Assembly (NCBI GenBank): GCA_946902875.1
Contig: OX336342.1
Coordinates: 16,299,523 to 16,363,522 of the forward strand
Length of the DNA: 64,000 nucleotides
Source of the DNA: Nematopogon swammerdamellus
Taxonomy: Eukaryota; Arthropoda; Insecta; Lepidoptera; Adelidae
Direction: 5' to 3'
Under the pieces are notes generated by a model that worked only from the letters and a program-made list of their open reading frames with translations, had not been told where the DNA came from and searched no databases. The translations under genes and the position numbers were made by a program. Shown here piece after piece: positions 7,633 to 34,600 of this stretch; position 1 is the stretch's first letter, and each line of letters opens with the position of its first letter.

Positions 7633-10600
7633 ATGAAGATCCTATGGACTCTGCTCCTCATCGGGCTGTTCACCCTGGCGGCGACCGATGCCAAGAAAAA
7701 GAAGAAAGTGGAGGGCGACTTTGAGTTTGCGGACGAGGTAAGAAGTGTATCGTCGGCTAGGTGTCGGAGGAGGCTTCGACGGACAAGTGATTAACTCCCC
7801 CTTTCATTCCCCACTCGCCCGCGCCCCGGTTGGCGACGCCTCTGCCTCGCCGCGCCGATGTGATGCCGAGCGGCTCACTGAAAACGACATTACTGTAAAA
7901 AACTTGCTATAATATCGCCAATCTGCCACTTTAGCGATTTTCACTTTTTAATGTTTTTATATGCCTAATTATGACCTCCTCCCCACTGCAGAAAACTCTC
8001 GTATTTGTACCATAAAATATGACGGTAGTAGAATATGGGTAGTAGAGTCATGATCTGACTCTACTACCTACTAGTTTTATACCTACCGCACATAGAATTA
8101 AATATGTATTCGAAGCTACCACATTGACTTATTTATTGGCATCTAAGGACCTCATACATTTACTTGAAGATACCGTAGTAAACTTGCCAAACTACCACTT
8201 TGGAGAACAGAAGTGGTCAATATGTTTAGCAAGTGAAGAAACATTCATAGTGGCCAAGTCAGCAATCAGCCACATCTCATTTTAGAGTAAATTTGTGCTT
8301 ATAAATAACATTTCAATTGATAAAGTCCTTTTAATGTGTTATATGATTTTTCCAGCTTTCTAAGATAAAAGCTTGATTTTGGGGGAAATTAATTAAGCTT
8401 TCATTTACTCCTCCTCAAAAGTTATGTAATTCATGTACCTACCAGATTTTTGCGGCAAAAACCTGTATAATACTTAGGTACTCTATACTTTATAGTAAAA
8501 CGTGTAATTTCACATTGACGTTGATTGTTAATCAGCGTCGTGGTCGGTCGGAGTGCTCGAAACGAAATAGCTTTTAAATTAAATTAGTTGCTGTTTTTGT
8601 CGATTTTCTGCTGACGAAGCTGTGGTCATTGGTATGTTTTGCATATTTTCTTGTAGTGCCGCCATACTTCTGCGATGTTTTATTGCTGATTAGCAATTTT
8701 AATTAATACGCTTTGTCAAACTTATACTCTATCTAACTCGCACTGAAGTAGCGATTTATTTGTCATAATTTATGCGAAATCTACCTGCGCAATTTTTATT
8801 TTAAATTCTAAAGTATTCGAACAAAAGAGAATAGTCCCCAGTTTTTGTCAGCGGCAAAGGTCTATCAATGCCATCGTTCGCAAGAAAAACCAGTAACGCA
8901 AGTTGTTATAATCCACCTGCATTTCTTCGAATTGTTGTTGTTGTCCATCGATGTTTGTTATCACGTTGTAGGTGGGTACATCCACCAGGCGGAATTATCC
9001 CGCCTGTATACCTACGTAGTATGCTCATCATAGCTGTCAACATAGAATATAGGGGCTGTGCTGTACGGGGCTGTCTAGAGTAGGTATTCCAGGGAAATTA
9101 ATTCCAGTCCACTAACACATTATGAAGTTTTATTGAAACTCAGTCCAACTATCTCTAACTGAAAGCATGGCACCACAGATCAGAGAAGTTTCATGGCACA
9201 ATGTAACTTTAGGGAGTACATAGGTATGCGCAGCGCAGGCAAAGCTCAGGTTTGCCATACATAATGTTCTTTCACGAGCGCGCGTGGACTTTTCATTTAC
9301 TACAATGCCATTGTTTATCCGTATCCCGTATCCGTACGGGAGCCTATTACTAAGCCTACGCCATCTGTCCGTCCGTACGTCCGTCTGCCCTGCCTTTAAA
9401 AGGCTGTATCTTTTGAACCGTAATAGATAGCCGATTGAAATTTTCATAGAATATGTGTGATTATGGCGGATATAATTTGTTTTTTTTTATGGAAACTGAC
9501 ACGGTTGGCTACATCACCTACAACATCCGTGATGTCAGCCCATAACACCGGGTGAACTTGGTGCCACGTCAGTGCTTCCCTTCGGTCGTGCCGGCTAACT
9601 GAACTGGACGGAAAACACGAACTATTTACATAGCCGTTTCGACTGACCTTTCATTTAGTGCGGTGGTTACCAACCCGGGCGGGTTAAACTCTACCACCTA
9701 GTCACATAAGAAGGGAGTCATATCCCTTACTCGCCTTTTACGATATACACGGGGAGAGATGCAGTGGGGCTATTCTTTCAAAGTACCGGCCCCACACGGT
9801 ACATATAATAATAACACAATACCTACAAAATAATAATAAAAAAACTAAAAGTATAAAAATAAGGGTGTCTCCATACAAGAAACGCGTTTTTAATCGTAAA
9901 AACGGCTAACACATACGAGTACAAGCGTCAAACTCGGTGTGATCACTACAAGTGAAAAATGTAAAGTAAAAACAATGTGAAAACAACAAAATTGTTTTCT
10001 CGGTACGCGAGTCCGACTCGCACGCACTTGGGCGGTTTTTTCTTAATATTTTGCTAAAAGTACGCGCTACCGCGCACATATATCGAACACAGCTAATGGT
10101 CATGCGCATATACCACGTAACAATGATACCATGGCTCTATGCGACTGAGAAATGACGGCTCTCATCCATCATTCATGAATGCTGCTATCAGCACTCTACC
10201 AAAATCGTGAGTGCAGTACCTACATTTTATAGTTACCGTGTAGGTACCTACTACCTATATATTTGCAATATATATCGTGTCTAGACAGAACATCATTACC
10301 AGCGATTTAGGTAGTATCAAATTTGGTATTTCTTACTTCGCACTGAGAAAAATGTTATGTATGATGGTGATTGATTAGTGATTTGATTACTAAACTTTAG
10401 TTAGAGACAACCACACACAAATATGTCTATACTATTAGAGACAACCACAAATATGACAGTTTCTCCAATATGTTATGATGGTGACTACTAAACTTTAGTA
10501 AAATAACTATTGGTTGTCTCTAACTAAAGTTTAGTACCTACTTCGGTTTAAAGAATCTTTATTATCTCAAAGAACGTGTGAACATTCGCTTATAGAGATT

Positions 10601-13600
10601 ACAAATAGTTACAAAGCAAATAAGTACTTAAATTTTAAAACTAAACATATGATATGATAATGCACAACAAATTTATGTTCTAGACGTATGATTGGTAAAG
10701 ATACTTAAGTAATCAAACAAAAATATTCAGTAAACAGACGGACAGACCAACAGACAGACAGACAGACACACAGAATTGAAATATTGATAAGATGCGTTTA
10801 CATAGGTACCTAAGTATAAAACTTTAGTCATTTTGGAAGAATTTTTTTACACTTAATTTAAACACATTATCCGATTCTAAGTCTCTTATCTCTTTTGGTA
10901 GTTTATTAAAAAGTTGTGCGCCATCGAAAATCATGTTTGTTTTGCCATAATTCGTTCTGACTGTTGGAATGCGTATCATAACATTTTTGGAATCACCATC
11001 ATAACATTTTTCTCAGTGTACGTTGACACTTGCGCCAGGCGACTAGGTAATAATCATGTATTCATAGCTGTCAAGTTTTCCTAATCAATAAATAAATACA
11101 CCAATAAAGAGCGGTCAAGTGCGAGTCGAACTCGCGCACCCAGCTTCCGTACCGGTCGTGCTATTTCATCATACCTACTCTTTGTATTTTATCAACGGGT
11201 GACTAGCATAGAATGAGCAAAAAGAGCACATAGAGCTATGCGTTTGTTTTCATGTGAGCCTGTTTGTGATGGATGACTAAAAGCTGTCTATGTTCCACGT
11301 CAATGTTGGAGAAAATTAATGCCATCAATGGCAGCGAAATCTCGCGTTGTAGGGACTTGCGTCAGCAAAAACAAAATAAGTGGTACATACATACAGTCGA
11401 GCTTTCGAAAGAGACAATCCGATTGTAGAGCGTCGTCTCTCTCGCACAGAGACATGCGAGTTCGTGCGACGTACGTATGCTAGAAAAAAAAAAGTTATAA
11501 AAAACTAAAACCCGACTACGTAAAAGCTAATTATGAAAATCGTTTAAATAAAAAAAAATAGTTATGAAAAACTAAAACCCGGCTACGAAAAAGCAAATTA
11601 TGAAAATAGTTTAACTTTAACTAAAAATAACAAAATAATGTTTTCCATATAATTTATCAGATACAGCAATTCTCTTTTTACATTGATTCTACCTTAGCAC
11701 TAACTCTATAAATTTTGATAAATTTATTATTTTTAACGTTCTAAATATAGAGCCGTGGTCGGGCGTTCTTCGTTCAACAAGACAAGTGAGGCCGTCGTCG
11801 TGCATTATTAGAGCGCGGAACTTAGGACGGCCATCGCCATTGTGTCATACTGGCATCTTTTTGTAAGATCAGTCAGAGCCAATCTAAATTTATTATAAGT
11901 AGATACATAGGTAAATACCGAACGTCAACGGCTATAATGCACAACGACGGTCTCACTTGTCTTGTTGAACGAAGAACGCCCGACCACGGCTCTATATTTA
12001 GAACGTTAAAAATAATAAATTTATCAAAATTTATAGAGTTAGTGCTAAGGTAGAATCAATGTAAAAAGAGAATTGCTGTATCTGATAAATTATATGGAAA
12101 ACATTATTTTGTTATTTTTAGTTAAAGTTAAACTATTTTCATAATTTGCTTTTTCGTAGCCGGGTTTTAGTTTTTCATAACTATTTTTTTTTATTTAAAC
12201 GATTTTCATAATTAGCTTTTACGTAGTCGGGTTTTAGTTTTTTATAACTTTTTTTTTATTTTAGGCTTTTTTAAAAACTGTTTGCATACTTTAAATGTTG
12301 TATGTAACTCGTATATTGATTTTTTTTTATGGAATCTGACACATCACCTACAGGCTACAACATCCGTGATGTCAGCCCATAACACCGGGTGAACTTGGTG
12401 CCACGTCAGTGCTTCCCTTCGGTCGTACCGGCTACACTAAATACATAGCCGTTTCTACCGACCTTTCATTCAGTGCGGTGCGGTGGTACCAACACGGGCG
12501 GGTTAAATAAACCCTACCACCTAGTAATATAAGAAGGAAGTCATATCCCTTAGTCGCCTTTTACGGCATACACGGGGAGAGATACAGTGGGGCTATTCTT
12601 TTATATAAGTACCGGCCCCACACGGTACAAAATTTATACTATCCGTCCGTTTATTTGTCGTGATCTCTATTTGAAACTAAAGTTTTCTGCAAATAGCGCA
12701 TGAGTGAGTACCTACATATATATACAAATTATGTATAGTTGAACGATGTATAGTCTTGAAGTAAAATGAAAAGTCAGTCAGAGCAAGACCGAAGACTGAG
12801 CTGTGTAAGTACACGATTTTCTTTGTCTATGTAAGTAAATATATCTGGTTGGGGTGAAGCGGATTCGGGAAGTAAGTAAACCAATCAGTTCAAGGCCGAA
12901 GACCGAGGGCGGTTTCAGGTTGTACATAGTTGAATAATGTACTCACTCGAAGCAGGTAAGCCACTAAGGCGAGGCCAAAGCTACTGATATTATTTTTATA
13001 GTAAGCGCGACATGTGGCGCCGAGCCACCCATAAGGTGTCTAGCGATGCCCATGGACATTCGGTAGCATGCGGAGGCTACGAATGCCATGCCGGCCTGAC
13101 AGGTGCCCAGGTTGAAGGACCCGAAACTGTACTTGGGGGAAAATATTTCTCTCTGTTTGTATTTCAACAGGCTCTGATTTAGCTATGTATCCCTACGGAG
13201 TTGCAGTGGTTTTAGATCGCGGGACATTTGGGAGTCACCTACTATTCGCACGGCTCGACGCTGGATCGAGTCCAGAGGCGCTAGCTCGTATTTGACTGAG
13301 CCATCCCATAGGCATGCCCATAGGTGCGAGCAGTACCCCAAGCAGGACCGAATCTGCGATTTATACGGCCTTGCCCTCGATGTCACGCCGGAAGTTTAGA
13401 TCGTGCGAAAATTCGACTCGGAGGACCCCGAGGTGGTCGCAAAATTTAAGTGACGTGCCTTGGTAGGAAGGAGCTGGTGTGATGCCGCTCTCTTTGCACT
13501 GAACGCGCAAACTTGTATCTTGGAGGTATTTAACTTGACCAACTTGCTACGGCCCATTCGGAAATAGAGCCGAGTGTTTGCTCAAGTTCAGACGCAAGTC

Positions 13601-16600
13601 TTCGCCTGTTCTCATCCACATCCCGCGTAGTTGAAGGGTAACTGGTGTAGAACCCGTGTTCCGTACTCTCGTATGCATAACAATGATATGTTGCCCCCTG
13701 AATGCTACGCCCACGCCTTCAACGTTAGCAAGGCTCAGTGCTGCGCATTATCTGCGAAGGTCGATTTGAAGGTCCTTTTGCTTTCCAAGCCAGTTTCTAA
13801 GTCAGCGTCATACCTGTCTGGAAGCACCTGAACGTCCTGGGCACCGCCATTTCCAAAGACGTAGGTTTCCGGCAACTAATCGAGTCTAGGGCTAAAACTG
13901 CACCCAGAAAATTGGGAATACTTTTCCGCAATCGGCGGTTCTTCTCTTCCACAATATCCCGCTTAGCTGAAGGGTAACTTGCATCCGAAAATATTGTAGG
14001 TATTAGGTATATTTAATGTACCTACCTTTTTTTTTTTTATGGAAACTTGACACGGTTGGTTACATCACCTACAAAATCCGTGATGTCAGCCCATAACACC
14101 GGGTGCCATGTCAGTGCTTCCCTTCATTTCGCGCCGGCTACACTGAACTGGACGGAAAACACGAACTATTTACATAGCCGTTTCGACCGACGTTTCGCTC
14201 AGTGCGGTGGTAACAACCCGGCCGGGATAAACCCTACCACCTAGTAAGGTAAGAAGGGAAGGGACCTACAGTTTAACGTGGTATCCGAACCACGGTCAGC
14301 CTCCAACAGTCGGGCGGTCATCCATCCAATAACTGACCGCACCATTAAGCTGCCGAGGCTGGCGATCCCTTAGTCGACTTTTACGACATGCGAGGGGGAG
14401 AGATGCAGTGGGGCTATTCTTTTTAAGTACCGACCCCACACGGTACACCTACGCTACATATTATGCTTACACTAGGTACATGGGCATTTAATACCAATTT
14501 ATTTTAGCATAGTACTGTATCTAATAATAATATTATATATCTATGTATATAAAATTTGCGGTAGATCAGTGAGTAAGTATGTAGCAAAGAGTTTTACAAA
14601 CTCTTTGGTATGTAGGTATATTACCAACAATACCACGTCGCTTCTTCGCGTCGCGTCGTCGCGTGTCGTCGTCGCGCGTCATTGGTGTATGTAACGTATC
14701 GAAACCGCGGGGGCGCGCGGCGCGGTGCGCGGGCGACTAGGCTTCATCGGGAATAATCGCTATTAATACATGCGCCACACATTTTGCTCTATTTCTCTGT
14801 ACACATAAGTTTAATAGATAGCAAAGTATATATTTTCGGAATCGTAATTTAATTATCTTTAATTTGATACCCCACTCAATATATTTTGAAAAACTAATTT
14901 GACATTTTGAGGCCGTGCGTCCGCCATTTTTGAATTTTGAAAATTGTTATATAGCCTATGACACTCCCGTGAATAAGACAAATCCAATAGCACAAGAATT
15001 ATTCAAATCGGCCCAGTACTTTAGGCTGTAGAGTGGAATATAGATAGTCACATACATACATACATACATACATACATACATACACGCCAAACTCATAACC
15101 CTTCCTTTTTTGGCTTCGCCGTAGTCGGGTAATAAGACGTGGACGCAAAAATGGATTGGCTGCATATTACTGCATAATATCTAAAACAGCGTAAGTGATC
15201 GAGATAGAGAACGGAGAAAGACGGTTACATGACATAATGTGATACGTATAGGAGATACAACGATTGGTACGTTCCCAATGTCCCACTGCAGTAATTTACC
15301 TATACATAGACATCCGCTTTTAAACACACATACTACAGCAAAAGTGTCGTGACGGTCGAAGTCTTACACTTTTTTCGGCCTCGCTCTCATTCGCCAAGGG
15401 TCTGGAGCGAAACGTGCGATAAGGAACTTCTTTCCAATTAGAAATAAGTGCAAAGTGTTTCCCATTCGGTCATACAAAGTCATTAATACTCGCATTAATC
15501 CAAATCCGAAATCATTAATCCATGGACCCATGCAATCCATCCAATCGTCACAGAGCCTGGCAGACCGATCGACTGAAAATAAAGCTAATCCAACACTGAC
15601 AGAAAAAGTGACCCCATAGGTACCTAACGTAATCATTATTAATTAATTGTGATCCATCCACATATTAATTTACTTATACGAGTATGTAGATGGATTGACG
15701 GGCTCAGTTCTACTAGGTATTTTGAAACGTGTATCTTCAAGCCAGCCAGAGCTTAAGCAAATAGTGCCAGCTTTCACACAACAAGAGAGCCCTACCGTGA
15801 TTTCATTCCACAAAGATGAATTATCTAAATGTGTGGGTGCAAAGAAAGCTTGTTTAGGTTGTGCGTAGGAATTAATAGAACTAAAGTAGCTTATATTTTT
15901 ATTATCTGGATGCCTAAAACCTTTCTAAGTATGTGCAAATTTTGGTTTGAATTCTAGAATTATATCAGAGTTACCTACGCTGCATTTGCAAAATAATAAA
16001 AACGATTGATTGATGAAAAGGGGACATATTTGCATTGAATTGTCGAGGCTTGAAGCCCGCGCTAGACTGATCAACTGATCTTCCGTCCAGGGGCCGAGGG
16101 CCGGAGACCGTTCGTCGATGTCCGTAGGTTATATTTTTACCATCCAACCTTGGTTGTTGCTACAGTCCTTGGGACGAAGAAAGTCCCAGATGATGGAATA
16201 ATACGTTCTTGTAAAAATTTTCAATTATTTTCTTACTGCACTTTTGTTATATTTTTCATGGAGGAGCAACGCATTTATAGTTTAGGTTCTTACGTAACAG
16301 AAGACAGGGAGGTGGGAGGAGTGGTAGGGGGAAAGGAGAAGTCGGCAGCCGGGATAGGGGATGGGGGTTCAGTGTCAGCGCTGCCGATAATGAATTCACA
16401 CGCTCCATTAATCACCAGCAGCCGCGCCGCAAAAATGTTGTAATTAAATTACTTTGCAACTATGTAGGTGTATTCGCATGTCTCTTTATGTGTGCCGCTG
16501 ACATTTTTCCTCCTCCGATGAATGGTGGAAGTTGGAAGTTTCAGCGATGCGGTGAGTAAACATTTTAATCTAGTTGTGCAATCGGGTAACTGTACTGTAC

Positions 16601-19600
16601 AAAGTTAGTGTTAATGGCAAAGTTCTGCAGCTCCCACTTTTAGAACAGACACCGTATGACTTATAGGAAGGTAGATACTGTTTGGCAGTACATTTATTGA
16701 ACAAGTGCCATTATAAGTTTCACTTCATCGTTAAAGTTTTTTATTTTCTAGTATTAGCAGTAATATTTTGAGATATATACACTTTTTAATTGAACTAAAT
16801 TTATTGTTTCAATAAAAACTAAAAAACTAATACGCTAAAACTAATCTATTTTAAATCAATCAGCTTTACTCACGGTTCCACTCCGATTGACTGTCTAACA
16901 ACCACGGTAATTTAAGAACCCATATAAAACAAATCTAAAATTAATATTAAGAAAACCTACAAAAAAAAATATTCTGAAAAGTCCGCCGAAGCCCCATCTC
17001 TGCCGACGCCAAGCTTACCCAGCACGCTCGCCGCGTTACCCCTCTGAATTTCCATACTTTGGAACGGCGCGCGGCGGTCGCCAGTCCTCTCCGCGAGAAA
17101 CTTTCCCAGTTTCTCCGTGAAAACCTTGGTTTCAGACACGTTTCAGACGACAATGGTCCCAGATTTTGTTTGACCGTCGTCTGTTTGTTCATCTTAAACT
17201 CAATTATTAATTTAACATTTTGGGAAAATTGCTGCACTTACATGCATAAAACCATATTATGTTTTGTACATCGGATTCCTCGGAAGTAAGCGACGACGCG
17301 GCACAAAAGGCCACTAAAGTAACAAGCAATGCTCTCAACGCTCGCTGCGTCAGGCGGGCGCACCTTCCCGTCGTCGTCGCAACGAACAATCGAGTGCAGG
17401 CTTAGCTGCTCGCCTAGGCACGTGTGAGTGAATGGAGCTAATGGTCTAGCTAGGAGAAGCCGAGTTGACTGCGAAGGCGGTAGCACTTGTCTGGTTGCTT
17501 ACCACCCCCTTTTCTTAGCTACACTACACGAGGCCGCCCACATCCCAATACATAAAGCCAATACATATTACATTTGCGAAAATTTCATCACGATTCGTCG
17601 CGACAATGTGTAGGTGGCGACGGAGCTTTAGTTTTTCGGAAATATAAATATTTCTGTCGAAAATACGACGATGATGACGACGCGACGATGACGTTACGAT
17701 CAAGTCAATGGCATCTACAAGAAGTCAACTACGAAAGTGTGCAACTGTTTTTTAATAATATCTCTGATTAAGTACTGGCCAAGATTAATTACACTCTTCC
17801 CCTCCAGGTGGGACGACGACATAAAGTACGTCGGAGGCAATCAGTGGTTTCGTACCGGTGAAGGCCGGGAGGACTGGAATCTGGAGAGGCGTATGTCCAG
17901 AAGTGGACACATAAACGCTGACTAACTGACTACCTATACTTTCGACCGTTCGATATTTGCTATTTTAAGTTTCACTTTGTCCAACTAATTTAATCATCAC
18001 GAAAGTGCAAAAATTGCAAAACACGGGAAAATAGCGTCGCAAAAACGTATTTTTCATACACACGTACACACATACCACACGCTGTATCCCGACAATTGGG
18101 GTAAGCAGAGTAATCGTTGTTTTGCTGCAAGGACTCTCGTACATTACAGCATTACATCGACCACCACGTTTAGCAAAGTATTATAACTTATAACAAAGGA
18201 TCGCAGTAAGTAAGCATGAGTCGCTGGAAGGACATGCCAAGGTGAGAGGTGGCTAGCCTGTCGCCCTTTAGCACGGCATCTTTTCTTTATCCCTTAGTCG
18301 CACATGCACGGGGAGAGATTGAGTAAATGTAATGTCGACTTAAGGGCGAGGTTCCGAAGTCCGGTCCTCCTGGGGGAGCGATACCCATTTCCTGCGAGTG
18401 CCGAAGTGGGGGCATTAACTGTTTCATCTAGTTAATGTTTTCGCCGCCAATAGAGTCCCTTGCGCGAATGTTTGTACACGCAATATTGTTCGCGAAATCA
18501 ATTCGATTTATATTGTTGGTGAACGCGATCGGGCCCTGTGCGATAGATAGCCTTTTTAGGGTTACGTCACAAAATGCGAAAAAGGGGACCCTTATGGGAT
18601 CATTGTGGCGTCTGTCTGTCTGTATATCCGTCTGTCGGTCACACGCAGGACCTGATGCCATAAAACGTAGATTTTTTAAAATAAATCGAGTATTGTGTCA
18701 TTTAATAGGTATTGTTCAGGCTATTTCAAAAATATATAAGTTATATATAACATGGCTAGAATTACTAAGTTTGCTTTAACAAATATTTCGGTTGAAAGTA
18801 TATACATAAATATATCCCCTGCCCAACTGGACAGGTGATGCACTCCTACACAATCGACCTACCACGGATGCGCTCCAACCGATTCTGGGGTAATTTATTC
18901 TCAGAACCGGAAAAATATGGAACGCACTCCCTGCCCTACTATTGCCTCCCAAGTACAGCCTGGAGTTTTTCAAAAGGGACGTGAAAAGGCTTCTGGCAGG
19001 CCGGCATGGCATTCGGAATCACCTTGCATCACAGAATGCCCATGGGCATACCTTGTAGTGTAGGTGTAACGTTGCCACATGTCGCGCATTCCATAAAAAA
19101 CCGGCCAAGTGCGAGTCGGACTCGCGCACCGAGGTTTCCGCACCACAAAAAAAACAATTAAAAAAACACGTTTCTTGTATGGGAAACCCTCTTAATTTTT
19201 TACTTTTTTAATTTTTTTATTATTTGTTGTTATATCCGCCATAATAACACATATTCTGTGAAAAGGCACAAGGCTACCTATTACGGTTCTAGAGATACAG
19301 CCCTCGGTCAGACAGACGGACGGACAGACGAACAGACAGACGGACGGACAGACAGACGGCGTACGGGATACGGAAACCTAAAAAAAGTATTAACATCCAT
19401 GGCAGGTAATTGTCGCTCGAAAATGATGCGGTTAATTCGCAACCTCCCCTTCCACTAGAACTTATATACTTATTCAACGACGCTTTTAGTCGAATTTCAA
19501 AGCGTCAAAGTTATTGGGCGAGGGTAAATGATTTGTGCTTCTTTGAAGTTCTCTTAAGGGAAATTAAGATACAAAACAGCAAAGCAGGCGTCAACGTTTG

Positions 19601-22600
19601 AGTGAAATACTTTATCTCTACTTCTTTGATTATAATAACTCAAAACTCGGTATTTCAAAATCGACAAGCAGCAAACAACAGCGAGGGCTATTTATAGCCA
19701 GACTCGAAACAACGACAGTGAGCCGAGCAAAGTTTGAAACGCCTACAGTACAGTTAAAAGCGAAGCTCAAAGTGCCGCTTCCAGAACGAAGGCTGAAAGA
19801 AGCGAAATACGTCTCCTTAAATATTTCTGAGAGCTTTCGCAAAGACGGACAAAGCTTTGTGTGTGTAGCACGGTAGCAAGTATGATGGTTGACGGAAGCA
19901 TTCTTGAGCATTGAACGTGTTACTCCACAATTTATGATGACCCAAAGGCTTCGAAAGTAGAACTGTCATTGTTGTATTTATTCACTAGCTTTTGCCCGCG
20001 GCTTCGCTCGCGTGAGATTGGTATTAAAAAAGAAAAAAAGTGAGTAAGACCGCTACCGTACCTTTATTTCGGCGCGCGAAACAATTCGGTTTGTATGAGA
20101 GCCACATCTTAGCGTAACCGGAACTGAATTTTATTTAGCACTAGCTGTGCCCGCGGCTCCGCCCGCTGTCATATTTGACTTCTCTGCTAACCTCATAAGC
20201 CATTTAGCGTGATAGTAAGTAGCCTATAGTTGATGGGAAGAATCAAGCTATCCGTAGATTTTTTTTTATTAAAATCGGTTCAGTGGTTCTCGAGTTATAA
20301 GCGGACAGACAGACATACATACATACATACATACATACAGACAGAAAGCAGACGTTGGATTTTATTAAAGGTAAGGATATCCTGTGTCCCGTGTAGTTAA
20401 ATGGGCTTGTACCAAGTTTTCATCGAATTCGGATGATCGGTTTAAGAGTTATGGAGGAACATACAAACATACATACAGACAAGATTTCTAAAAAAGGTCA
20501 ATTTAGTTTTAGTATCATACATAGAGTCTACAAACGCAATATCTCATCAAACAAAGTAACTTACTCCATGACCATCACTTACAGATTTATTATTAGTGCT
20601 GATATTGATGATATTGATTTAGAAAATCTACAGCTTAACCATACAATAATGAATAAGTGAATTATCTTCTACAATTACAGAATTGCCTTGAAAGCTAATC
20701 TATTTTTTATTCAACCTGAATTCTTATATTATATGCAATTTAAATTAAGTCTATGTGGAGGTGAGTGTTAGTGTGGGTGTAGTGTGTGAGGGTGAGTTTA
20801 AAGTTGTTGAGTTTAAAGCGAGCTTAAAGTCATTCAATCATAACATATCATGCAATTTTCAAAGTCAAATATTGACTTCGCCTCCAATATAATCCATACT
20901 TGCAATCAAGAACGAATGTTCTTGCTCGCAATTTACATTAGTCGAGAGGCATTGACGAACATACTCAAGTTCACAAGTGTGAGAGCTTTTATAATGACCG
21001 CACCGGGTCGAAGAGTTGGTGCATTTTCTATTCTTTTCAATTCTCTGATGATGGTCCGAATGTACCCACAACATGTTTATTCAAGCTAGAAACTCATTGG
21101 GCCCACGTACGCTACGCACGCGTACGTGGGCGCGTCTGTCTCCATACATTTTTTATGGAAGAGTGCAGCACGCAGTGTGTCGCGTAGCGTAGGGTGGCGT
21201 GGGCGCAATGAAACTGCGTGGTGAACTCTTCCATATAAAATGTATGGAGACCGACGCGCCCAGATTCGCGTGTGTGGCGTACGTGGGCCCAATGAGTTTC
21301 TAGCTCAGTCTACTCTAGCTTTCAGTGGTTCGTTGCACTAAGGATTAACGCGGAGCTTTAAACGAAAATGCTGCTGCCTCGGGCGAGCTAGCAACGACAC
21401 TGCAAGCGAGCGGAGCTTCGTCTCTGGCTGGATATTCGAGTCTGGGATGACATTATTCGTAGCCCAGCTTTGTTTTACTTTGCACTTACGTGCCACCGAC
21501 CTGCACAACACTGCTCAGATTTATTTTGTTTTTAAGTGGGATTTATTTGGATGTAGGTAATCCGGTATGGGTGTCTGATTCCGGGCCAGAGCACATGCTC
21601 CGCCCGGCCAATATCGCCACCAAAAAGAAAGGTGCCATAGCGGAGATTTCCCGTTGAGTTGCTGGATATTCTGAACTAGAGGAGAACACAGCCGAGACTG
21701 CTATGCGGCCGATCTTTCGTCCGGTATCATGGTGGTGCCAACCGGTGGCGGTTTCCAAACGTATGGTTTGTATGTGCAAAGAAAATAATATAAATAAAAA
21801 TAGTTTTGTACGTGTATGTTGGTTATGCACAGATGTGCAACTAGGTATCTAAGCTGCTTTAAATATCTAAATACATAGATGGCTTCCTGTGTGTCAATAA
21901 AAAAAATTCCATAATGTGTACCAACAGACAAACCAATAAAATTACAGAAAGTGTTCTGCCAGCCAGCGATATGCCAGCACAATAATGTACGATATTACAA
22001 GTAAAATAGGTATACCTATAATTCACTGAAAGTCTCTAGCTTCACTTTGCTTGTAGGTACCTAAATTGTACTTCGTATCTGTGTCGGCGGGGATCGCAAA
22101 GTTGTGCTGTCTTTGTTTTCCTCCCTATTTTCATTTTCCACAAATTTAATTGAAGATAACTTGAAAAAGAAAATCAATGTTTTCCGAACTAATATCATGC
22201 ATGAAACACCTTTTTTCTTTCTTCTTAGTGCAGGCAGCTAAAGTCGTGGGAAGAAACGCTAAATTTGTATTTGATATCATTAATCACTAGGTGTTCACAA
22301 CACTGTGAGAACAAACATTCAAATAAACCAACTGAACTCTCCAGATGTCAAAAGGTCAAAAGCAAATGAGGGCAAAAATGTCGATTGAAACTGTCAATAT
22401 AAATATACTTAAACTCACGAGTTCACCTACTAACTAAATCTTTTTCAGGGTGCTGCACTGTAATGTAGGTAACATTACAGTGCAGCACCCTGAAAAAGTC
22501 TAAGTGTATTCATTCAGATTCCGGAGTCTATAGAAGAAGAAATTATAAACTTGGGTAGGTAGGTACCTATCTGCTTTACTTTACTGCACAAATAAAGCTT

Positions 22601-25600
22601 GTGTATCACATATCAGTTTCAGTACCAACAAGGACACATTTTTTTCTACTGTTATCTTCGGCAGAAATGCCAATTAAATAGCTCATTCTGCATGTAACGT
22701 ACCTATTAAAAAAAAATAGTTTCCTGTACGAGTATTTATAGCTACGTACGTACCTAGAGGGAGTGCGAATCGAGCGAAGCGATACCTACTTATTGGTACG
22801 TGGAATTGATTCTCTTCATTCAGCTCCAGTTTGGATTCGGGAAACCGAACGCGTCAATCACAATGGGCAATCAACGAAATCGCGGACTCAATTCCGCGCG
22901 TCACATTGATCAATTCCCGCCATTTCGAGCGACCTGCGATAATACATGACATAATCGGATCGGAATTGTCGACGGGCGGCGGCGTTTTATACCTTGTAGG
23001 TTTCATGCATGAATGACGTTGATGATCGAGCAACAATGGATCAAGGTGTGGACCGTGGGCTAGACTGCCTGCAGTGCACTCTTTTTGGAGGTTGAATCGA
23101 ATTGGATGGAACGGCAGGGAACCGGTTAGGTTGTGGTGTGGGGCCCAAGGCTGCTTCGCTCGCTCCCGCCCGCCTCGCCCCGCTGCGTCGCCGTGCCTCC
23201 GCGCCCCGGTCCAAGCTTTGTTTTGGCCAACTTGCTCACTGCACATATATTATATTAGGCATATCTACCTGACTGAGATGAGCTGCGTTCGTGCAGGTAG
23301 CTTAGCTGGGTTAAATCATGCATTATTCACCGGGATTATTCAGGCATGCGTACGAGTGAGTGAACCGAAATAGAGAGAGGTAGGTTGCGGCTGCTATCAA
23401 CATGGTACCTATCTACATTTGTATAGGTTCTAAAAGGTTTTGGTACTTATTGGTATTTCTTGCACCTACTGTAATTATATCATGACTTTAATATTATTTA
23501 TTTATATGTTGTACACATACCCTTAGCTACAGACCTTAGATGGTACCTTGTGTTTCATAAAATATTAGGGGCAATTTGTACATACAACATGCAAGGCAAG
23601 TGAACTGCTTTTCACTTCTTCCATAGGTACGTACCATAAGTATAGATAATTATGTACGAATAGGTACCTCTGAAAAAATCGACCAAGTGCGAGTCGGACT
23701 CGCGCACCGAGGGGAACCCTCGCTCGGTGCGCGAGTCCGACTTTTCACCGGCTTTTATTATTTGTTGTTTTACTTTAGACTTTGTACTATAATCACACCT
23801 AGTTTGACGCTTTTACTCGTATGTTTTACAATTTGTACGACAGAGCAAAGACAATGAAAAAAAACTTGAATGAAAAAACACGGTTCTTGTAATAAATCCC
23901 TACTGTTTATTATTTTTTATTTGTTAGTATATCCACCATATTAACACATATTCTGTGATAATGTCAACCGGCCACCTATTACGGTTCAAAAGATACAGAC
24001 AGACGGACAAACGGACGGTGTGGACTTAGTAATAGGGTCCCGTACGGATACGGAACCCTAAAAACAAATGAAGTTAGGTACCTACATCATTAAGTCAGTT
24101 AGGTACTTACATAAAACTCAACCTTACAATATTTGATGAAATGAAGGGAAGCACTGACATGGCACCTAGTTCACCCGGTGTTATGGGCTGACATCGACGA
24201 TGTTGTAGGTGATGTAGCCAACCGTGTAAGTTTCCATAAATCAAAACAAATCAATAATAATTTCTGGTATGTAAATAATTTACCGAGAAGATAAAGGCGG
24301 TCTGTCCAACTAAACCAGAGAAAGTCTAAGCAGGTTCTGAGTTAGTGTTTACTCTTTCTGTCGTCATCTTCTATACACGGTGTTGCAGTTGCCCCCGTAA
24401 TATTTTTAACTGGCATAAGGGGGTTATTCTATATATGAAACTAAACAACTTCTGTGAAGAAAAAACATTTTTTGAAACAAAAAAATAATTATTTTTTCCA
24501 TAAAAATTTTAAATACCTCTTCTCAAAATGTATGGATAAAAATTTTTTTTTTTTTAAATAAAAAAGTCGTAGAACAAAAGTTGTTCTATTTCACGTACAG
24601 AATCACCCCTTTCGGGTTTAACGGTTGGGGTTGCAACACCGTGTATATGATACCTAGATAAAGCTCACTAGTTCCAAAGGGTGGAGGACGGAGGAGGGAG
24701 GAGGAAGGGGTCACGACCGCTGGCATCGCTGTCCGCTGTTCAGAGTTGAGAGCGGCACTTTCCGCGCCGGCTTGTTTTCTCGTGCCAATTTCCCGAATCT
24801 CGGAAGGCGCGCGCGCGACTTACTTACGAGCGGGGTGTAAAGTAGCAGCAATGTTGGTCGGATATTTTTCACAATTTAGCTGGGCTCTGTCTAGCGAGAC
24901 ACAGTACCTGTCTAGCTCTGCGGCGGCGGCGGCGGCGGCGTCCTCTCGGCGCCCCGGGGCGTATCGACCTCGCAGGGAGACGACGACGTCGTGCCGCCGC
25001 AACGCCGGCGCCGCCGCCGCGACGCCGACGCCGCCGCCGCGACGCCGACGCCGCCGCCGCCGCCGGGCTGTCTGCCCCGCCCCGCCCTCGCGACTGTCGG
25101 CGTCTATCGTCTCCTTTAATAGGATTTATCAGCACGATCCGGTCTGGGAACTTTGGCTTCGTGACACTTTGCCGATACAAGCGCACTATTGTTGAAAATC
25201 ACACAGAAATGCAAAATACTAAATTTGATCTATTTTTACCCGACTACGGCGAAGCCAAAAAAGGAAGGGTTATGAGTTTGGCGTGTATGTATGTATGTAT
25301 GTATGTATGTATGTATGTGACTATCTATATTCCACTCTACAGCCTAAAGTACTGGGCCGATTTGAATAATTCTTGTGCTATTGGATTTGTCTTATTCACG
25401 GGAGTGTCATAGGCTATATAACAATTTTCAAAATTCAAAAATGGCGGACGCACGGCCTCAAAATGTCAAATTAGTTTTTCAAAATATATTGAGTGGGGTA
25501 TCAAATTAAAGATAATTAAATTACGATTCCGAAAATATATACTTTGCTATCTATTAAACTTATGTGTACAGAGAAATAGAGCAAAATGTGTGGCGCATGT

Positions 25601-28600
25601 ATTAATAGCGATTATTCCCGATGAAGCCTAGTCGCCCGCGCACCGCGCCGCGCGCCCCCGCGGTTTCGATACGTTACATACACCAATGACGCGCGACGAC
25701 GACACGCGACGACGCGACGCGAAGAAGCGACGTGGTATTGTTGGTAATATACCTACATACCAAAGAGTTTGTAAAACTCTTTGCTACATACTTACTCACT
25801 GATCTACCGCAAATTTTATATACATAGATATATAATATTATTATTAGATACAGTACTATGCTAAAATAAATTGGTATTAAATGCCCATGTACCTAGTGTA
25901 AGCATAATATGTAGCGTAGGTGTACCGTGTGGGGTCGGTACTTAAAAAGAATAGCCCCACTGCATCTCTCCCCCTCGCATGTCGTAAAAGTCGACTAAGG
26001 GATCGCCAGCCTCGGCAGCTTAATGGTGCGGTCAGTTATTGGATGGATGACCGCCCGACTGTTGGAGGCTGACCGTGGTTCGGATACCACGTTAAACTGT
26101 AGGTCCCTTCCCTTCTTACCTTACTAGGTGGTAGGGTTTATCCCGGCCGGGTTGTTACCACCGCACTGAGCGAAACGTCGGTCGAAACGGCTATGTAAAT
26201 AGTTCGTGTTTTCCGTCCAGTTCAGTGTAGCCGGCGCGAAATGAAGGGAAGCACTGACATGGCACCCGGTGTTATGGGCTGACATCACGGATTTTGTAGG
26301 TGATGTAACCAACCGTGTCAAGTTTCCATAAAAAAAAAAAAGGTAGGTACATTAAATATACCTAATACCTACAATATTTTCGGATGCAAGTTACCCTTCA
26401 GCTAAGCGGGATATTGTGGAAGAGAAGAACCGCCGATTGCGGAAAAGTATTCCCAATTTTCTGGGTGCAGTTTTAGCCCTAGACTCGATTAGTTGCCGGA
26501 AACCTACGTCTTTGGAAATGGCGGTGCCCAGGACGTTCAGGTGCTTCCAGACAGGTATGACGCTGACTTAGAAACTGGCTTGGAAAGCAAAAGGACCTTC
26601 AAATCGACCTTCGCAGATAATGCGCAGCACTGAGCCTTGCTAACGTTGAAGGCGTGGGCGTAGCATTCAGGGGGCAACATATCATTGTTATGCATACGAG
26701 AGTACGGAACACGGGTTCTACACCAGTTACCCTTCAACTACGCGGGATGTGGATGAGAACAGGCGAAGACTTGCGTCTGAACTTGAGCAAACACTCGGCT
26801 CTATTTCCGAATGGGCCGTAGCAAGTTGGTCAAGTTAAATACCTCCAAGATACAAGTTTGCGCGTTCAGTGCAAAGAGAGCGGCATCACACCAGCTCCTT
26901 CCTACCAAGGCACGTCACTTAAATTTTGCGACCACCTCGGGGTCCTCCGAGTCGAATTTTCGCACGATCTAAACTTCCGGCGTGACATCGAGGGCAAGGC
27001 CGTATAAATCGCAGATTCGGTCCTGCTTGGGGTACTGCTCGCACCTATGGGCATGCCTATGGGATGGCTCAGTCAAATACGAGCTAGCGCCTCTGGACTC
27101 GATCCAGCGTCGAGCCGTGCGAATAGTAGGTGACTCCCAAATGTCCCGCGATCTAAAACCACTGCAACTCCGTAGGGATACATAGCTAAATCAGAGCCTG
27201 TTGAAATACAAACAGAGAGAAATATTTTCCCCCAAGTACAGTTTCGGGTCCTTCAACCTGGGCACCTGTCAGGCCGGCATGGCATTCGTAGCCTCCGCAT
27301 GCTACCGAATGTCCATGGGCATCGCTAGACACCTTATGGGTGGCTCGGCGCCACATGTCGCGCTTACTATAAAAATAATATCAGTAGCTTTGGCCTCGCC
27401 TTAGTGGCTTACCTGCTTCGAGTGAGTACATTATTCAACTATGTACAACCTGAAACCGCCCTCGGTCTTCGGCCTTGAACTGATTGGTTTACTTACTTCC
27501 CGAATCCGCTTCACCCCAACCAGATATATTTACTTACATAGACAAAGAAAATCGTGTACTTACACAGCTCAGTCTTCGGTCTTGCTCTGACTGACTTTTC
27601 ATTTTACTTCAAGACTATACATCGTTCAACTATACATAATTTGTATATATATGTAGGTACTCACTCATGCGCTATTTGCAGAAAACTTTAGTTTCAAATA
27701 GAGATCACGACAAATAAACGGACGGATAGTATAAATTTTGTACCGTGTGGGGCCGGTACTTATATAAAAGAATAGCCCCACTGTATCTCTCCCCGTGTAT
27801 GCCGTAAAAGGCGACTAAGGGATATGACTTCCTTCTTATATTACTAGGTGGTAGGGTTTATTTAACCCGCCCGTGTTGGTACCACCGCACCGCACTGAAT
27901 GAAAGGTCGGTAGAAACGGCTATGTATTTAGTGTAGCCGGTACGACCGAAGGGAAGCACTGACGTGGCACCAAGTTCACCCGGTGTTATGGGCTGACATC
28001 ACGGATGTTGTAGCCTGTAGGTGATGTGTCAGATTCCATAAAAAAAAATCAATATACGAGTTACATACAACATTTAAAGTATGCAAACAGTTTTTAAAAA
28101 AGCCTAAAATAAAAAAAAAGTTATAAAAAACTAAAACCCGACTACGTAAAAGCTAATTATGAAAATCGTTTAAATAAAAAAAAATAGTTATGAAAAACTA
28201 AAACCCGGCTACGAAAAAGCAAATTATGAAAATAGTTTAACTTTAACTAAAAATAACAAAATAATGTTTTCCATATAATTTATCAGATACAGCAATTCTC
28301 TTTTTACATTGATTCTACCTTAGCACTAACTCTATAAATTTTGATAAATTTATTATTTTTAACGTTCTAAATATAGAGCCGTGGTCGGGCGTTCTTCGTT
28401 CAACAAGACAAGTGAGACCGTCGTTGTGCATTATAGCCGTTGACGTTCGGTATTTACCTATGTATCTACTTATAATAAATTTAGATTGGCTCTGACTGAT
28501 CTTACAAAAAGATGCCAGTATGACACAATGGCGATGGCCGTCCTAAGTTCCGCGCTCTAATAATGCACGACGACGGCCTCACTTGTCTTGTTGAACGAAG

Positions 28601-31600
28601 AACGCCCGACCACGGCTCTATATTTAGAACGTTAAAAATAATAAATTTATCAAAATTTATAGAGTTAGTGCTAAGGTAGAATCAATGTAAAAAGAGAATT
28701 GCTGTATCTGATAAATTATATGGAAAACATTATTTTGTTATTTTTAGTTAAAGTTAAACTATTTTCATAATTTGCTTTTTCGTAGCCGGGTTTTAGTTTT
28801 TCATAACTATTTTTTTTTATTTAAACGATTTTCATAATTAGCTTTTACGTAGTCGGGTTTTAGTTTTTTATAACTTTTTTTTTTCTAGCATACGTACGTC
28901 GCACGAACTCGCATGTCTCTGTGCGAGAGAGACGACGCTCTACAATCGGATTGTCTCTTTCGAAAGCTCGACTGTATGTATGTACCACTTATTTTGTTTT
29001 TGCTGACGCAAGTCCCTACAACGCGAGATTTCGCTGCCATTGATGGCATTAATTTTCTCCAACATTGACGTGGAACATAGACAGCTTTTAGTCATCCATC
29101 ACAAACAGGCTCACATGAAAACAAACGCATAGCTCTATGTGCTCTTTTTGCTCATTCTATGCTAGTCACCCGTTGATAAAATACAAAGAGTAGGTATGAT
29201 GAAATAGCACGACCGGTACGGAAGCTGGGTGCGCGAGTTCGACTCGCACTTGACCGCTCTTTATTGGTGTATTTATTTATTGATTAGGAAAACTTGACAG
29301 CTATGAATACATGATTATTACCTAGTCGCCTGGCGCAAGTGTCAACGTACACTGAGAAAAATGTTATGATGGTGATTCCAAAAATGTTATGATACGCATT
29401 CCAACAGTCAGAACGAATTATGGCAAAACAAACATGATTTTCGATGGCGCACAACTTTTTAATAAACTACCAAAAGAGATAAGAGACTTAGAATCGGATA
29501 ATGTGTTTAAATTAAGTGTAAAAAAATTCTTCCAAAATGACTAAAGTTTTATACTTAGGTACCTATGTAAACGCATCTTATCAATATTTCAATTCTGTGT
29601 GTCTGTCTGTCTGTCTGTTGGTCTGTCCGTCTGTTTACTGAATATTTTTGTTTGATTACTTAAGTATCTTTACCAATCATACGTCTAGAACATAAATTTG
29701 TTGTGCATTATCATATCATATGTTTAGTTTTAAAATTTAAGTACTTATTTGCTTTGTAACTATTTGTAATCTCTATAAGCGAATGTTCACACGTTCTTTG
29801 AGATAATAAAGATTCTTTAAACCGAAGTAGGTACTAAACTTTAGTTAGAGACAACCAATAGTTATTTTACTAAAGTTTAGTAGTCACCATCATAACATAT
29901 TGGAGAAACTGTCATATTTGTGGTTGTCTCTAATAGTATAGACATATTTGTGTGTGGTTGTCTCTAACTAAAGTTTAGTAATCAAATCACTAATCAATCA
30001 CCATCATACATAACATTTTTCTCAGTGCGAAGTAAGAAATACCAAATTTGATACTACCTAAATCGCTGGTAATGATGTTCTGTCTAGACACGATATATAT
30101 TGCAAATATATAGGTAGTAGGTACCTACACGGTAACTATAAAATGTAGGTACTGCACTCACGATTTTGGTAGAGTGCTGATAGCAGCATTCATGAATGAT
30201 GGATGAGAGCCGTCATTTCTCAGTCGCATAGAGCCATGGTATCATTGTTACGTGGTATATGCGCATGACCATTAGCTGTGTTCGATATATGTGCGCGGTA
30301 GCGCGTACTTTTAGCAAAATATTAAGAAAAAACCGCCCAAGTGCGTGCGAGTCGGACTCGCGTACCGAGAAAACAATTTTGTTGTTTTCACATTGTTTTT
30401 ACTTTACATTTTTCACTTGTAGTGATCACACCGAGTTTGACGCTTGTACTCGTATGTGTTAGCCGTTTTTACGATTAAAAACGCGTTTCTTGTATGGAGA
30501 CACCCTTATTTTTATACTTTTAGTTTTTTTATTATTATTTTGTAGGTATTGTGTTATTATTATATGTACCGTGTGGGGCCGGTACTTTGAAAGAATAGCC
30601 CCACTGCATCTCTCCCCGTGTATATCGTAAAAGGCGAGTAAGGGATATGACTCCCTTCTTATGTGACTAGGTGGTAGAGTTTAACCCGCCCGGGTTGGTA
30701 ACCACCGCACTAAATGAAAGGTCAGTCGAAACGGCTATGTAAATAGTTCGTGTTTTCCGTCCAGTTCAGTTAGCCGGCACGACCGAAGGGAAGCACTGAC
30801 GTGGCACCAAGTTCACCCGGTGTTATGGGCTGACATCACGGATGTTGTAGGTGATGTAGCCAACCGTGTCAGTTTCCATAAAAAAAAACAAATTATATCC
30901 GCCATAATCACACATATTCTATGAAAATTTCAATCGGCTATCTATTACGGTTCAAAAGATACAGCCTTTTAAAGGCAGGGCAGACGGACGTACGGACGGA
31001 CAGATGGCGTAGGCTTAGTAATAGGCTCCCGTACGGATACGGGATACGGATAAACAATGGCATTGTAGTAAATGAAAAGTCCACGCGCGCTCGTGAAAGA
31101 ACATTATGTATGGCAAACCTGAGCTTTGCCTGCGCTGCGCATACCTATGTACTCCCTAAAGTTACATTGTGCCATGAAACTTCTCTGATCTGTGGTGCCA
31201 TGCTTTCAGTTAGAGATAGTTGGACTGAGTTTCAATAAAACTTCATAATGTGTTAGTGGACTGGAATTAATTTCCCTGGAATACCTACTCTAGACAGCCC
31301 CGTACAGCACAGCCCCTATATTCTATGTTGACAGCTATGATGAGCATACTACGTAGGTATACAGGCGGGATAATTCCGCCTGGTGGATGTACCCACCTAC
31401 AACGTGATAACAAACATCGATGGACAACAACAACAATTCGAAGAAATGCAGGTGGATTATAACAACTTGCGTTACTGGTTTTTCTTGCGAACGATGGCAT
31501 TGATAGACCTTTGCCGCTGACAAAAACTGGGGACTATTCTCTTTTGTTCGAATACTTTAGAATTTAAAATAAAAATTGCGCAGGTAGATTTCGCATAAAT

Positions 31601-34600
31601 TATGACAAATAAATCGCTACTTCAGTGCGAGTTAGATAGAGTATAAGTTTGACAAAGCGTATTAATTAAAATTGCTAATCAGCAATAAAACATCGCAGAA
31701 GTATGGCGGCACTACAAGAAAATATGCAAAACATACCAATGACCACAGCTTCGTCAGCAGAAAATCGACAAAAACAGCAACTAATTTAATTTAAAAGCTA
31801 TTTCGTTTCGAGCACTCCGACCGACCACGACGCTGATTAACAATCAACGTCAATGTGAAATTACACGTTTTACTATAAAGTATAGAGTACCTAAGTATTA
31901 TACAGGTTTTTGCCGCAAAAATCTGGTAGGTACATGAATTACATAACTTTTGAGGAGGAGTAAATGAAAGCTTAATTAATTTCCCCCAAAATCAAGCTTT
32001 TATCTTAGAAAGCTGGAAAAATCATATAACACATTAAAAGGACTTTATCAATTGAAATGTTATTTATAAGCACAAATTTACTCTAAAATGAGATGTGGCT
32101 GATTGCTGACTTGGCCACTATGAATGTTTCTTCACTTGCTAAACATATTGACCACTTCTGTTCTCCAAAGTGGTAGTTTGGCAAGTTTACTACGGTATCT
32201 TCAAGTAAATGTATGAGGTCCTTAGATGCCAATAAATAAGTCAATGTGGTAGCTTCGAATACATATTTAATTCTATGTGCGGTAGGTATAAAACTAGTAG
32301 GTAGTAGAGTCAGATCATGACTCTACTACCCATATTCTACTACCGTCATATTTTATGGTACAAATACGAGAGTTTTCTGCAGTGGGGAGGAGGTCATAAT
32401 TAGGCATATAAAAACATTAAAAAGTGAAAATCGCTAAAGTGGCAGATTGGCGATATTATAGCAAGTTTTTTACAGTAATGTCGTTTTCAGTGAGCCGCTC
32501 GGCATCACATCGGCGCGGCGAGGCAGAGGCCTCGCCGCGCCGTAGGTGGTAGTTTTCAACCCGCCCGGGTTGGTACCACCGCACTGAATGAAACGTCGGT
32601 CGAAACGGTTATGTAAATAGTTTGTGTTTTCCGTCCAGTTCAGTGTAGCCGGCACGACCGAAGGGAAGCACTGACATGGCACCTAGTTCACCCGGTGTTA
32701 TGGGCTGACATCACGGATGTTGTAGGTGATGTTGATGTAGCCAACCTTGTCGGTTTCCATAAAAAAAAAGAAGTTTATTTTCACTATTTTTAAAGTACCT
32801 ACCTAACTACATCATGGATTGATTTGATACATACGGATACGAGTGCCAGAGAGAAGAATGGAACTGGCACTGCCTATGCCGCTAGCGCTTCAGATAATTT
32901 TACACAAATCTTGTCTCACTAAGTAGGTACCCAAGTTTTTTTTTTATGGAAACGGACACGGTTGGCTTCATACATCACCTATAACATCCGTGATGTCAGT
33001 CCATAACACCGGGTGAACTAGGTGCCATGTCAGTGCTTCCCTTCATTTCGTGCCGGCTACAGGACGGAAAACAAGTATATACCAACAGACATTTGAGAAA
33101 AAATACAGATGAAATGAGCACTTAGCCACGAGTTAGAAGTATTTTTTTTCTGTTCGTAATTTCGACAAGGTTCACCCTGAAGGAAAGGAAATAGATTTGA
33201 AGACAGTTTTGTATGATTCAGCCAGCAATGCACATAAAATTGATAATATGTAGGTATGTACCTAATTGTGTTCGGTGGATCCACCTTATCCCGGTGAACC
33301 GAAAAAAAGGCTGCTGTATCTTAAAATGATTCCCCTGACGCACGCTAAGGTTATGGATGGACCTCCCGGCGCGTGTGTTCAGAGTTCCCCCTAAATAACA
33401 ACCTGCGATGCGAAGCGAAGCTCTTCAACGGCCCCGGATTAATGTACTTTCCCCGGAAACACTTGTCCGCTTCCGCTTAAAGCACCCATGAAGGCGAAAT
33501 TTTAGTGAGTCTGCTTTGGGCTCAACGCAATCAGACTCGCTAAAATTCAAAATCAAGAGATTTAACCACATACATAATATACAAATACAATGCCTAATTT
33601 TTTCGGTACCTAAGCTGACATGTTTGAATGCCTACATAACCAAAGCCTGCGATGTCAGCTCAGTACACCTTGCTCTATGTTATGCATCCCGAGTCCCGAC
33701 ATGGCACCTCACTATGCATGGTTTCACGAAGTGGTGTGACCAGCGATATGCAAAAATAAATAAATGAGACAACGGGTGTGGTTGTTTTCACCCAGTCTAT
33801 ACCCGTGCCGGTTCTTTATAAAAAATACCGACATTGTGCTCATTTATCATACTCAGAACTGGGGGGAATAGGTTATAGAGGTCGTGGTCATACCGTCATA
33901 GGTTAATTCACGACGGCGACATGAGTAGGCGGCTGTAAAAGAAAACCATCTCACGTTGTATGTGTGTGAGTTTAGTGTCTGCCTGCTCATTGGTTGACTG
34001 ATATGATATAATATAATTATTATTGACTATGGCACTGCGTGCAGTTGGGTCCTGTTACAAAAATAAAACCGAAAATATCGATTAGTTTTCTTGAGATTAA
34101 AAGTCTTGCAAAGCGCGTTATTTATTACGGGTTAATTTACTTATAAAATGTTTATTACCTTCCTTGGTCCGCTTAGCAGAGACGTTATTTTATAGAAAGT
34201 GAGACATGTGTCGCTGGTGTCTAACGGCGCCCATGGACATTCGGTTGAACGCGGGGTTGCGAATGTCATAGTTAGAGCATTTAATGGGGAATAGTTAGAG
34301 CATTTAAGGCGCTGCTAGGGCGGTGCCATGCGGTTTTTGAAAAAAAAACATCTTTCACACTAGGTAAGTATGTATTTACTAAATTGTCAATTTGAAAAGA
34401 CTTCTGGTTCGATGAATCTATCGAGTTGCTACATTTTAGTATACTTAGAAACTACAACTAACTATGTCATATGAAAATCTAATTCACATTTTCTCCGACT
34501 GAAAATTTCCAAGTTCCAACCCTACTGATCAGTCCTTCTCCGGTGGTATCATATACCCAATAACCTTCCGGAGATACTGTATGTCGGATTGCATAAGTGC

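Follow-up and report, generated by a model that had tools for sequence, protein, structure and literature searches.

How a giant inverted repeat came to occupy the first intron of an apparently Cow-like gene is the question raised by this locus of Nematopogon swammerdamellus, which lies in the window, that is, the whole stretch of 64,000 nucleotides analysed here.

The host intron and the two arms

The Pfam analysis placed Kazal_2 at 36340-36522 (E 1.4e-9), SPARC_Ca_bdg in 39109-39312 (E 2.1e-4, exactly at its cut-off) and Thyroglobulin_1 at 40150-40335 (E 7.4e-20) downstream of a signal-peptide-like first exon, and no family above the cut-off for the exon at 7633-7737 itself. These domains bear out the preliminary description, which had named Cow as the host, and the gene is Cow-like as judged from its predicted products. 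Within the frame that starts at 35003, a 17-residue stretch that looks Cow-like gave no Pfam hit, and a small exon may lie inside the presumed Cow intron 1. The left arm begins at 7838, exactly 100 bp inside the intron behind the donor GT at 7738, just as had been described, and its outer edge falls within the GC-rich exon-1 region (GC 0.54-0.73 over 7438-7837 and 0.51 over 7838-7937, then 0.33).

7633..7737, + strand: Cow exon 1, a stretch including a signal-peptide-like translation of 35 residues; donor GT at 7738
7838..15132, + strand: left arm A, perfect inverted match to 25236-32530; presumed donor
15133..25235: spacer between the arms, 10,103 bp
25236..32530, - strand: right arm A', perfect inverted match to arm A; probably the derived copy, a direction read from the outer junctions
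7838..11484, + strand: intron part of arm A, largely single-copy, with repeats, among them a SINE, at about 9318-9806
28884..32530, - strand: intron part of arm A', the inverted copy of 7838..11484

As a result of the window self-alignment, which the preliminary description had called for, the two arms were found to be identical in inverted orientation, with 0 mismatches over 7,295 aligned positions, and the claimed constant coordinate sum of 40368, without net insertion or deletion, indeed held for the paired positions throughout. BLAST stretches the match to 7832-15135 / 32536-25233, with 2 mismatches in 7,304. A perfect inverted match of 7.3 kb is not due to chance, and it supports the recent inverted duplication proposed earlier; what that proposal had missed is the retroposon making up half of the arms, the position of its 3' end at the inner edges and the snap-back-like filler. 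Ongoing gene conversion, also suggested, is not needed as an explanation of the identity, since a young event should show no differences, though it may have contributed. Similarly, the eight recurring open frames do have identical translations, which follows merely from the identity of the arm DNA, so that they are no evidence of coding. The idea that the arms are coding duplicates was thus rejected, as only one frame of at least 90 aa (118 aa, stop to stop) lies wholly inside each arm.

Each arm joins 3,647 bp of intron DNA, largely single-copy, to a near-full-length copy of a young, dispersed, non-autonomous retroposon. Within the highest-ranking candidates that were scored (40 and 38, respectively, a depth at which diverged relatives could be missed), segments 7838-9326 and 9838-11484 matched both arms only, save for one 39-bp match, and the searches for tRNA and Rfam content found none. 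The whole 24.7-kb unit was also considered as a single DNA transposon with giant terminal inverted repeats, and this was rejected because 7838-9326 occurs at these two places only among the best 40 candidates scored, and on the single frame of at least 90 aa per arm.

A young retroposon at the inner edges

11485..15132, + strand: non-autonomous retroposon copy in A, sense to Cow, with the fixed 3' end CGTAGTCGGGTAA
25236..28883, - strand: retroposon copy in A', with the 3' end towards the spacer and, in place of the TAAGACG of A, AAATAGATC beside it
11485..12257: 5' fold-back of the retroposon, inverted pair 11485-11808 / 11934-12257

Dispersed copies of the retroposon, with 94-100% identity, start near 11485 and end at 15133-15138. 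Within the best 40 rows, A' among them, 38 of the 39 besides arm A stop at 15133-15138, the same 38 ending at 402-407 of the inner-edge query, while the remaining one stops about 10 bases before the common 3' end. Since 38 of 39 end at the same point, the inner edge is the end of the element and no random breakpoint. AAA directly follows the 3' end in 30 of the 34 copies scored, and the element at 11485-15132 therefore has the constant 3' end and A-rich tail of a LINE-type retroposon. Its longest frame encodes 75 aa, and neither a reverse transcriptase nor an endonuclease frame was found in it; an autonomous partner was likewise not found in the two longer loci read. The two halves of its 5' fold-back, 324 bp each, are 99.4% identical and contain 67-bp tandem units, and the fold-back is doubled in another copy, L053.

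Target-site duplications were scored at 34 of the 38 loci L017-L054, with automatic 5' edges wrong or doubtful for at least six copies. Direct flank matches of at least 7 bases were detected in 8 of the 34, one of them an A-rich run, and four copies, with 12, 12, 11 and 9 bases, exceeded all 37 control flanks. For the present arms, the retroposon of A gave 5 bases (16 of 37 controls as good) and that of A' alone 4 (30 of 37), and the entire arms gave 5 bases for A (13 of 37) and 3 for A' (37 of 37).

The retroposon 3' end thus forms the inner edge of both arms, beyond which the flanks differ, TAAGACG at A versus AAATAG at A'. The AAA tail of A' is as expected if A' began as an insertion of its own. 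Repeats in the 1-kb inner flanks (15285-15437 and 24372-24648) fall short of the arm edges, and flank searches from or beside the edges found no older repeats joining the flanks to the arm. The copy L018 lies further along, 68 kb from the retroposon of A and 54 kb from the one in A', and shows 0 differences over 3,638 bp; its tail is TAA as in A, though it is identical in the aligned part, and the tail is therefore a poor guide to relatedness.

As a separate and testable oddity, near-identical copies of the retroposon cluster locally on the chromosome: for 6 of the 24 aligned copies the nearest relative lies less than 500 kb away on the same contig, a number reached in 0 of 20,000 permutations.

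The outer edges

7827..7857, + strand: imperfect hairpin across the left outer edge, the presumed snap-back seed, from RNA folding and alignment
32511..32542: perfect hairpin at the right outer edge, 13-bp stem and 6-base loop
32531-32542: inverted filler of 12 bases, identical to 7846-7857
32543..32772, + strand: SINE without the first ~100 bases of its longer form, starting directly at the filler

The left-edge hairpin is not unusual for its composition (z -1.48, 16 of 200 shuffles as stable). At the right edge, the perfect 13-bp stem is matched or exceeded in 7 of 20,000 flanks sampled at random from the window, and perfect hairpins with stems of at least 12 bp are not rare, with about nine such places across the 64 kb. 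No GC step is seen at this edge (0.51 then 0.52), because the GC-rich SINE follows. From these junctions we infer, short of proof, that the left arm was the donor and the right arm the copy, a direction weakened by the missing GC step and by the frequency of such hairpins. Were the right hairpin native, a match of 5 bases, GGCGA, beyond the left edge could represent microhomology for copying the other way. Moreover, the SINE at 52558 breaks off where the right-edge SINE does, and those at 14026 and 60301 have a different 5' part from about that SINE's start, so the right-edge SINE, as its relatives in the window suggest, may be short for its own reasons.

Origin and consequences of the inverted copy

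We consider break-induced replication with template switching, in which young inverted retroposon copies served as the homology, to be the leading explanation, with a probability of roughly one half. A second retroposon copy, old or just inserting, would have been present in opposite orientation 10 kb downstream, and a DNA end inside it, whether broken or still unfinished, would have paired with the left copy. Moving leftward, the polymerase would then have replicated the retroposon and 3.6 kb of intron and come to a halt at the imperfect hairpin, rich in GC, that lies 100 bp from exon 1; there the new strand would have folded back and copied 12 bases of itself, the snap-back end finally being joined to a SINE that had lost its first part. 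As in break-induced and microhomology-mediated break-induced replication (BIR/MMBIR), one junction lies at inverted homologous repeats, both inner edges coinciding with the retroposon 3' end, and the other carries a templated insertion, the 12-base filler within the 13-bp hairpin. The identical nearby copy L018 counts in favor of copying between inverted retroposon copies, and the SINE that is short exactly at the filler, together with the identity of the filler to 7846-7857, speaks for outward copying ended by snap-back. It counts against break-induced copying that the earlier second copy is itself a presumed one. The scheme resembles the DUP-TRP/INV-DUP rearrangements at PLP1 and MECP2, in which the junctions lie in inverted repeats and replicative repair involves microhomology switches, the inverted repeats at PLP1 being crucibles of replicative rearrangement with template switches (PMC4352052, in part). 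In contrast to that system, the repeats here are young retroposon copies and the tract outside them is 3.6 kb; DUP-TRP/INV-DUP itself was rejected, as there is no triplication or flanking duplication and the outer arm part exists in two copies only among the best candidates scored.

The main rival is retrotransposition of Cow intron RNA, in which the retroposon, lying sense in intron 1, would have had its 3' end recognised in the unspliced or excised intron, and a 7.3-kb cDNA reaching nearly to the intron 5' end would have been inserted 10 kb downstream. It would require one event instead of two, and it fits the inner edge, since target-primed copying would start from the 3' end found there, and the right arm, which stops 100 bp short of the intron 5' end, a position for which break-induced copying offers no special reason. 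Fold-back 5' ends within the family (the 324-bp inverted pair, doubled in L053), the clustering of close copies (6 of 24 within 500 kb) and an 8-base inverse match between the 5' and 3' flanks of L022, of which 7-8-base examples occur elsewhere and which has no control, point the same way. Penelope-like elements of Adineta vaga likewise have an inverted 5' terminal part, form palindromes and carry host DNA; they are reported to mobilise host DNA with introns, and one of their insertions has no target duplication, 8-10 bp target duplications being present in some copies and absent from others (PMC3846280, in part). The hallmarks of such elements are reverse transcriptase with GIY-YIG endonuclease and pseudo-LTRs; the Cow-intron retroposon differs in that no frame sufficient for either enzyme was found in it and in the A's that usually follow its 3' end. 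Against intron-RNA copying stand the lack of a target-site duplication at the right arm (3 bases at best, with at least as many in all 37 control flanks), the AAA tail of A', which differs from the TAA of the supposed template, the strong local bias needed to land 10 kb off in the same intron, and the finding of a transduced 5' flank in no other copy among 29 fetched 200-bp 5' flanks. A long stretch in common was seen between L029 and L035 alone among these flanks (120 bp, 95%); from the A-run at its end and relatives in L025 and L054, it looks like a common repeat into which both inserted. In the genome survey for 5' transduction, 15 of 29 flank pieces passed the filter and 12 were queried, with 37 of the best 40 rows due to one high-copy flank; in the all-against-all comparison of fetched loci, many ordinary repeats appear among the matches listed, the longest of which (885 bp, 95%, L047 versus L053) lies away from the L053 5' edge. 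We regard intron-RNA copying as possible but rather unlikely. Very unlikely, in our estimate, is an inversion by template switching in replication without retroposon machinery or a second copy, its inner edge set by coincidence or local fragility: the snap-back filler and the short shared bases at the outer edges would fit it, and a model of microhomology-mediated break-induced replication has been published (PMC2621351, in part), but the inner edge falls within a few bases of the element end. We give slightly less weight still to an assembly artefact or chimeric molecules, with the right arm absent from the animal. Perfect arm identity would suit this, and snap-back chimeras also arise in amplified libraries; however, read-through hairpin artefacts have arms with little or no spacer, whereas here the spacer is 10.1 kb, the flanks differ at all four edges, one edge coincides with a genuine element end and the window lies inside a 24.9-Mb contig.

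The Cow intron thus appears to hold a retroposon-templated inverted duplication with both junctions readable and too young for mutations, and such duplications can seed palindromes, inversions and hairpin RNAs. In maize Mu killer, an inverted duplication of transposon sequence similarly lies beside a gene, and a hairpin RNA of ~4 kb, made by read-through from the flanking gene, was proposed to feed siRNAs; individuals that failed to silence nevertheless had read-through sense transcripts, and the hairpin model is not simple (PMC3440606, in part). Unlike Mu killer, the present case concerns a retroposon in an insect intron. If transcribed, the Cow pre-mRNA would contain a perfect double-stranded stem of 7.3 kb, half of it a recently active retroposon. 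We also considered, as a fairly improbable idea, that the family copies RNA still tied to its gene and inserts nearby in cis; this, if true, would explain both the chromosome-local clusters and the perfect inverted duplicate of the beginning of Cow intron 1. The new-born hairpin could then act on the family as a small-RNA trap, in the way suggested for Mu killer, and its effects on Cow expression and on the silencing of the retroposon family are testable.

Composition of the inverted arms

On alignment, the left arm (A, 7838-15132) and the right arm (A', 25236-32530) proved to be perfect inverses with 0 differences at 7,295 positions, which bears out the preliminary description of two 7,295-bp reverse-complement arms with a 10,103-bp spacer. 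The host intron starts at 7738, directly 3' of the exon coding MKILW...EGDFEFADE, and downstream of the arms, on the same strand as exon 1, lie Kazal_2, SPARC calcium-binding and Thyroglobulin_1 domain matches, the SPARC calcium-binding match sitting exactly at the cut-off. We take these to be the domain set of Cow and SPARC-type proteins, hence the gene name Cow. The window (C10:16299523-16363522, in a genome of 699 Mb and 39 contigs) also holds the following features.

1158-1335: near-perfect 178-bp palindrome from a scan (84-bp stem, 10-base centre) with tandem units of 33 bp, likely to be a small fold-back element
2593-3703, minus strand: broken mariner-like transposase frames, recognized by eye
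22440-22498: spacer hairpin with a perfect 27-bp stem and a 5-base loop; either a hairpin RNA or a small fold-back element
24993-25065: tandem array rich in GCC, lying some 170 bp ahead of the right arm's inner edge
53964-56510, minus strand: 848-aa open frame with RVT_1 reverse transcriptase and RNase H, a non-LTR-like element inside a gene on the opposite strand that presumably resembles ST7

The genome searches score only the best candidates, so that a missing match points to the lack of a close additional copy. In these searches 7838-9326, which is the arm's outermost 1,489 bp, matched only at the two arm positions, and 9838-11484 gave a single 39-bp match besides the arms. The left arm carries repeats from about 9318 to 9806, one of which is a SINE. 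A dispersed element starts at 11485; of the 38 candidates scored for it, both arms included, the majority show 94-100% identity across more than 2 kb, and 38 of the 39 listed rows other than the left arm stop at 15133-15138. Each arm thus comprises 3,647 bp of intron and 3,648 bp of element. Both arms have the element's 3' end as their inner edge, past which the flanks of A and A' differ.

The probable retroposon and its local clustering

We read the element as a non-autonomous retroposon. Its constant 3' end, CGTAGTCGGGTAA, is followed by AAA in 30 of the 34 copies scored, its 5' starts are somewhat variable, and it holds no open frame longer than 75 aa; it contains a SINE piece and a stretch that by eye resembles an antisense LINE. 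In 4/34 copies the flanks carry direct repeats of 9-12 bases that beat all 37 controls; a clear target duplication was not seen in the other 30, the automatic 5' edges being poor in several. At the 5' end two 324-bp arms make up a fold-back, and one copy (L053, C10:24422677-24430577) carries a doubled palindrome with four 324-bp units, two per orientation. The flanks of copy L022 share an 8-base inverse match, a kind of match scored without control. At least three copies (L027, L029 and L035) sit directly behind A-tailed repeats or A-runs in the 5' flank, perhaps reflecting a target preference. A 100-bp piece in the 5' flank of L024 (C28:7592627-7598275) matches at least 37 genome places at 100% identity and is apparently a very recently active element.

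Near-identical copies cluster on C10, C14 and C28, about 36-390 kb apart within a chromosome. Among 24 alignable copies (13/37 were omitted, the extracted stretch being incomplete or broken up), the nearest relative lay on the same contig for nine (permutation mean 1.64; 2/20,000 as high) and within 500 kb for six (mean 0.48; 0/20,000), values that are indicative only, because the sample consists of the copies most similar to the arm and pair partners count twice. Closest to the arm are L018 (0 differences) and L017 (1 difference, 2.1 Mb off), both on C10. L021 and L024 on C28 differ at 2 positions, as do L027 and L028 on C14 with gaps included, and in both pairs the 3' ends face each other, like A and A'. 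Close pairs also span different contigs (L023/L030, 4 differences; L045/L051, 5).

Outer edges, probable direction of copying and origin

At the right outer edge, a perfect hairpin with a 13-bp stem spans 32511-32542. Its second half (32531-32542) is a repeat of 7846-7857, and a SINE lacking the first ~100 bases of its longer form starts at 32543. The window holds about nine stems of this length, but only 7/20,000 random flanks produce one at the edge. At the left edge, the GC-rich exon-1 stretch continues across 7838, and the hairpin that the corresponding bases form there is imperfect, with a stability not unusual for its composition. The observations are most simply read as an original left side whose bases recur on the right in a snap-back version, the perfect hairpin. 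However, the right edge shows no GC step either, another SINE copy ends at the same point, and a GGCGA match at 7832-7836 could be microhomology for the reverse direction.

Copying would start at the retroposon 3' end and head towards exon 1, stall at the hairpin and switch template onto itself, and the new strand would then be joined to the broken SINE. This course is compatible with two routes. We tentatively favour, at a probability of about 0.48, the one in which another copy of the retroposon, either old or in mid-insertion at 25236, would supply a homologous end that invades the left copy. The AAA tail of A' versus TAA of A fits this route. The other route, which we consider less likely, is reverse transcription of the Cow intron RNA as one whole. 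It fits the local clustering of retroposon copies and the stop at 100 bp from the 5' splice site of the intron, but the same difference in tails and the missing target duplication argue against it.

At a butterfly mutation rate of ~3 × 10⁻⁹ per site and generation, 0 differences in 7,295 bp would limit the age to at most some 70,000 generations, although gene conversion could mask a greater age of the arms. As to possible consequences, Mu killer, an inverted repeat that lies next to a gene and is transcribed, has been proposed as a source of small RNAs (PMC3440606).
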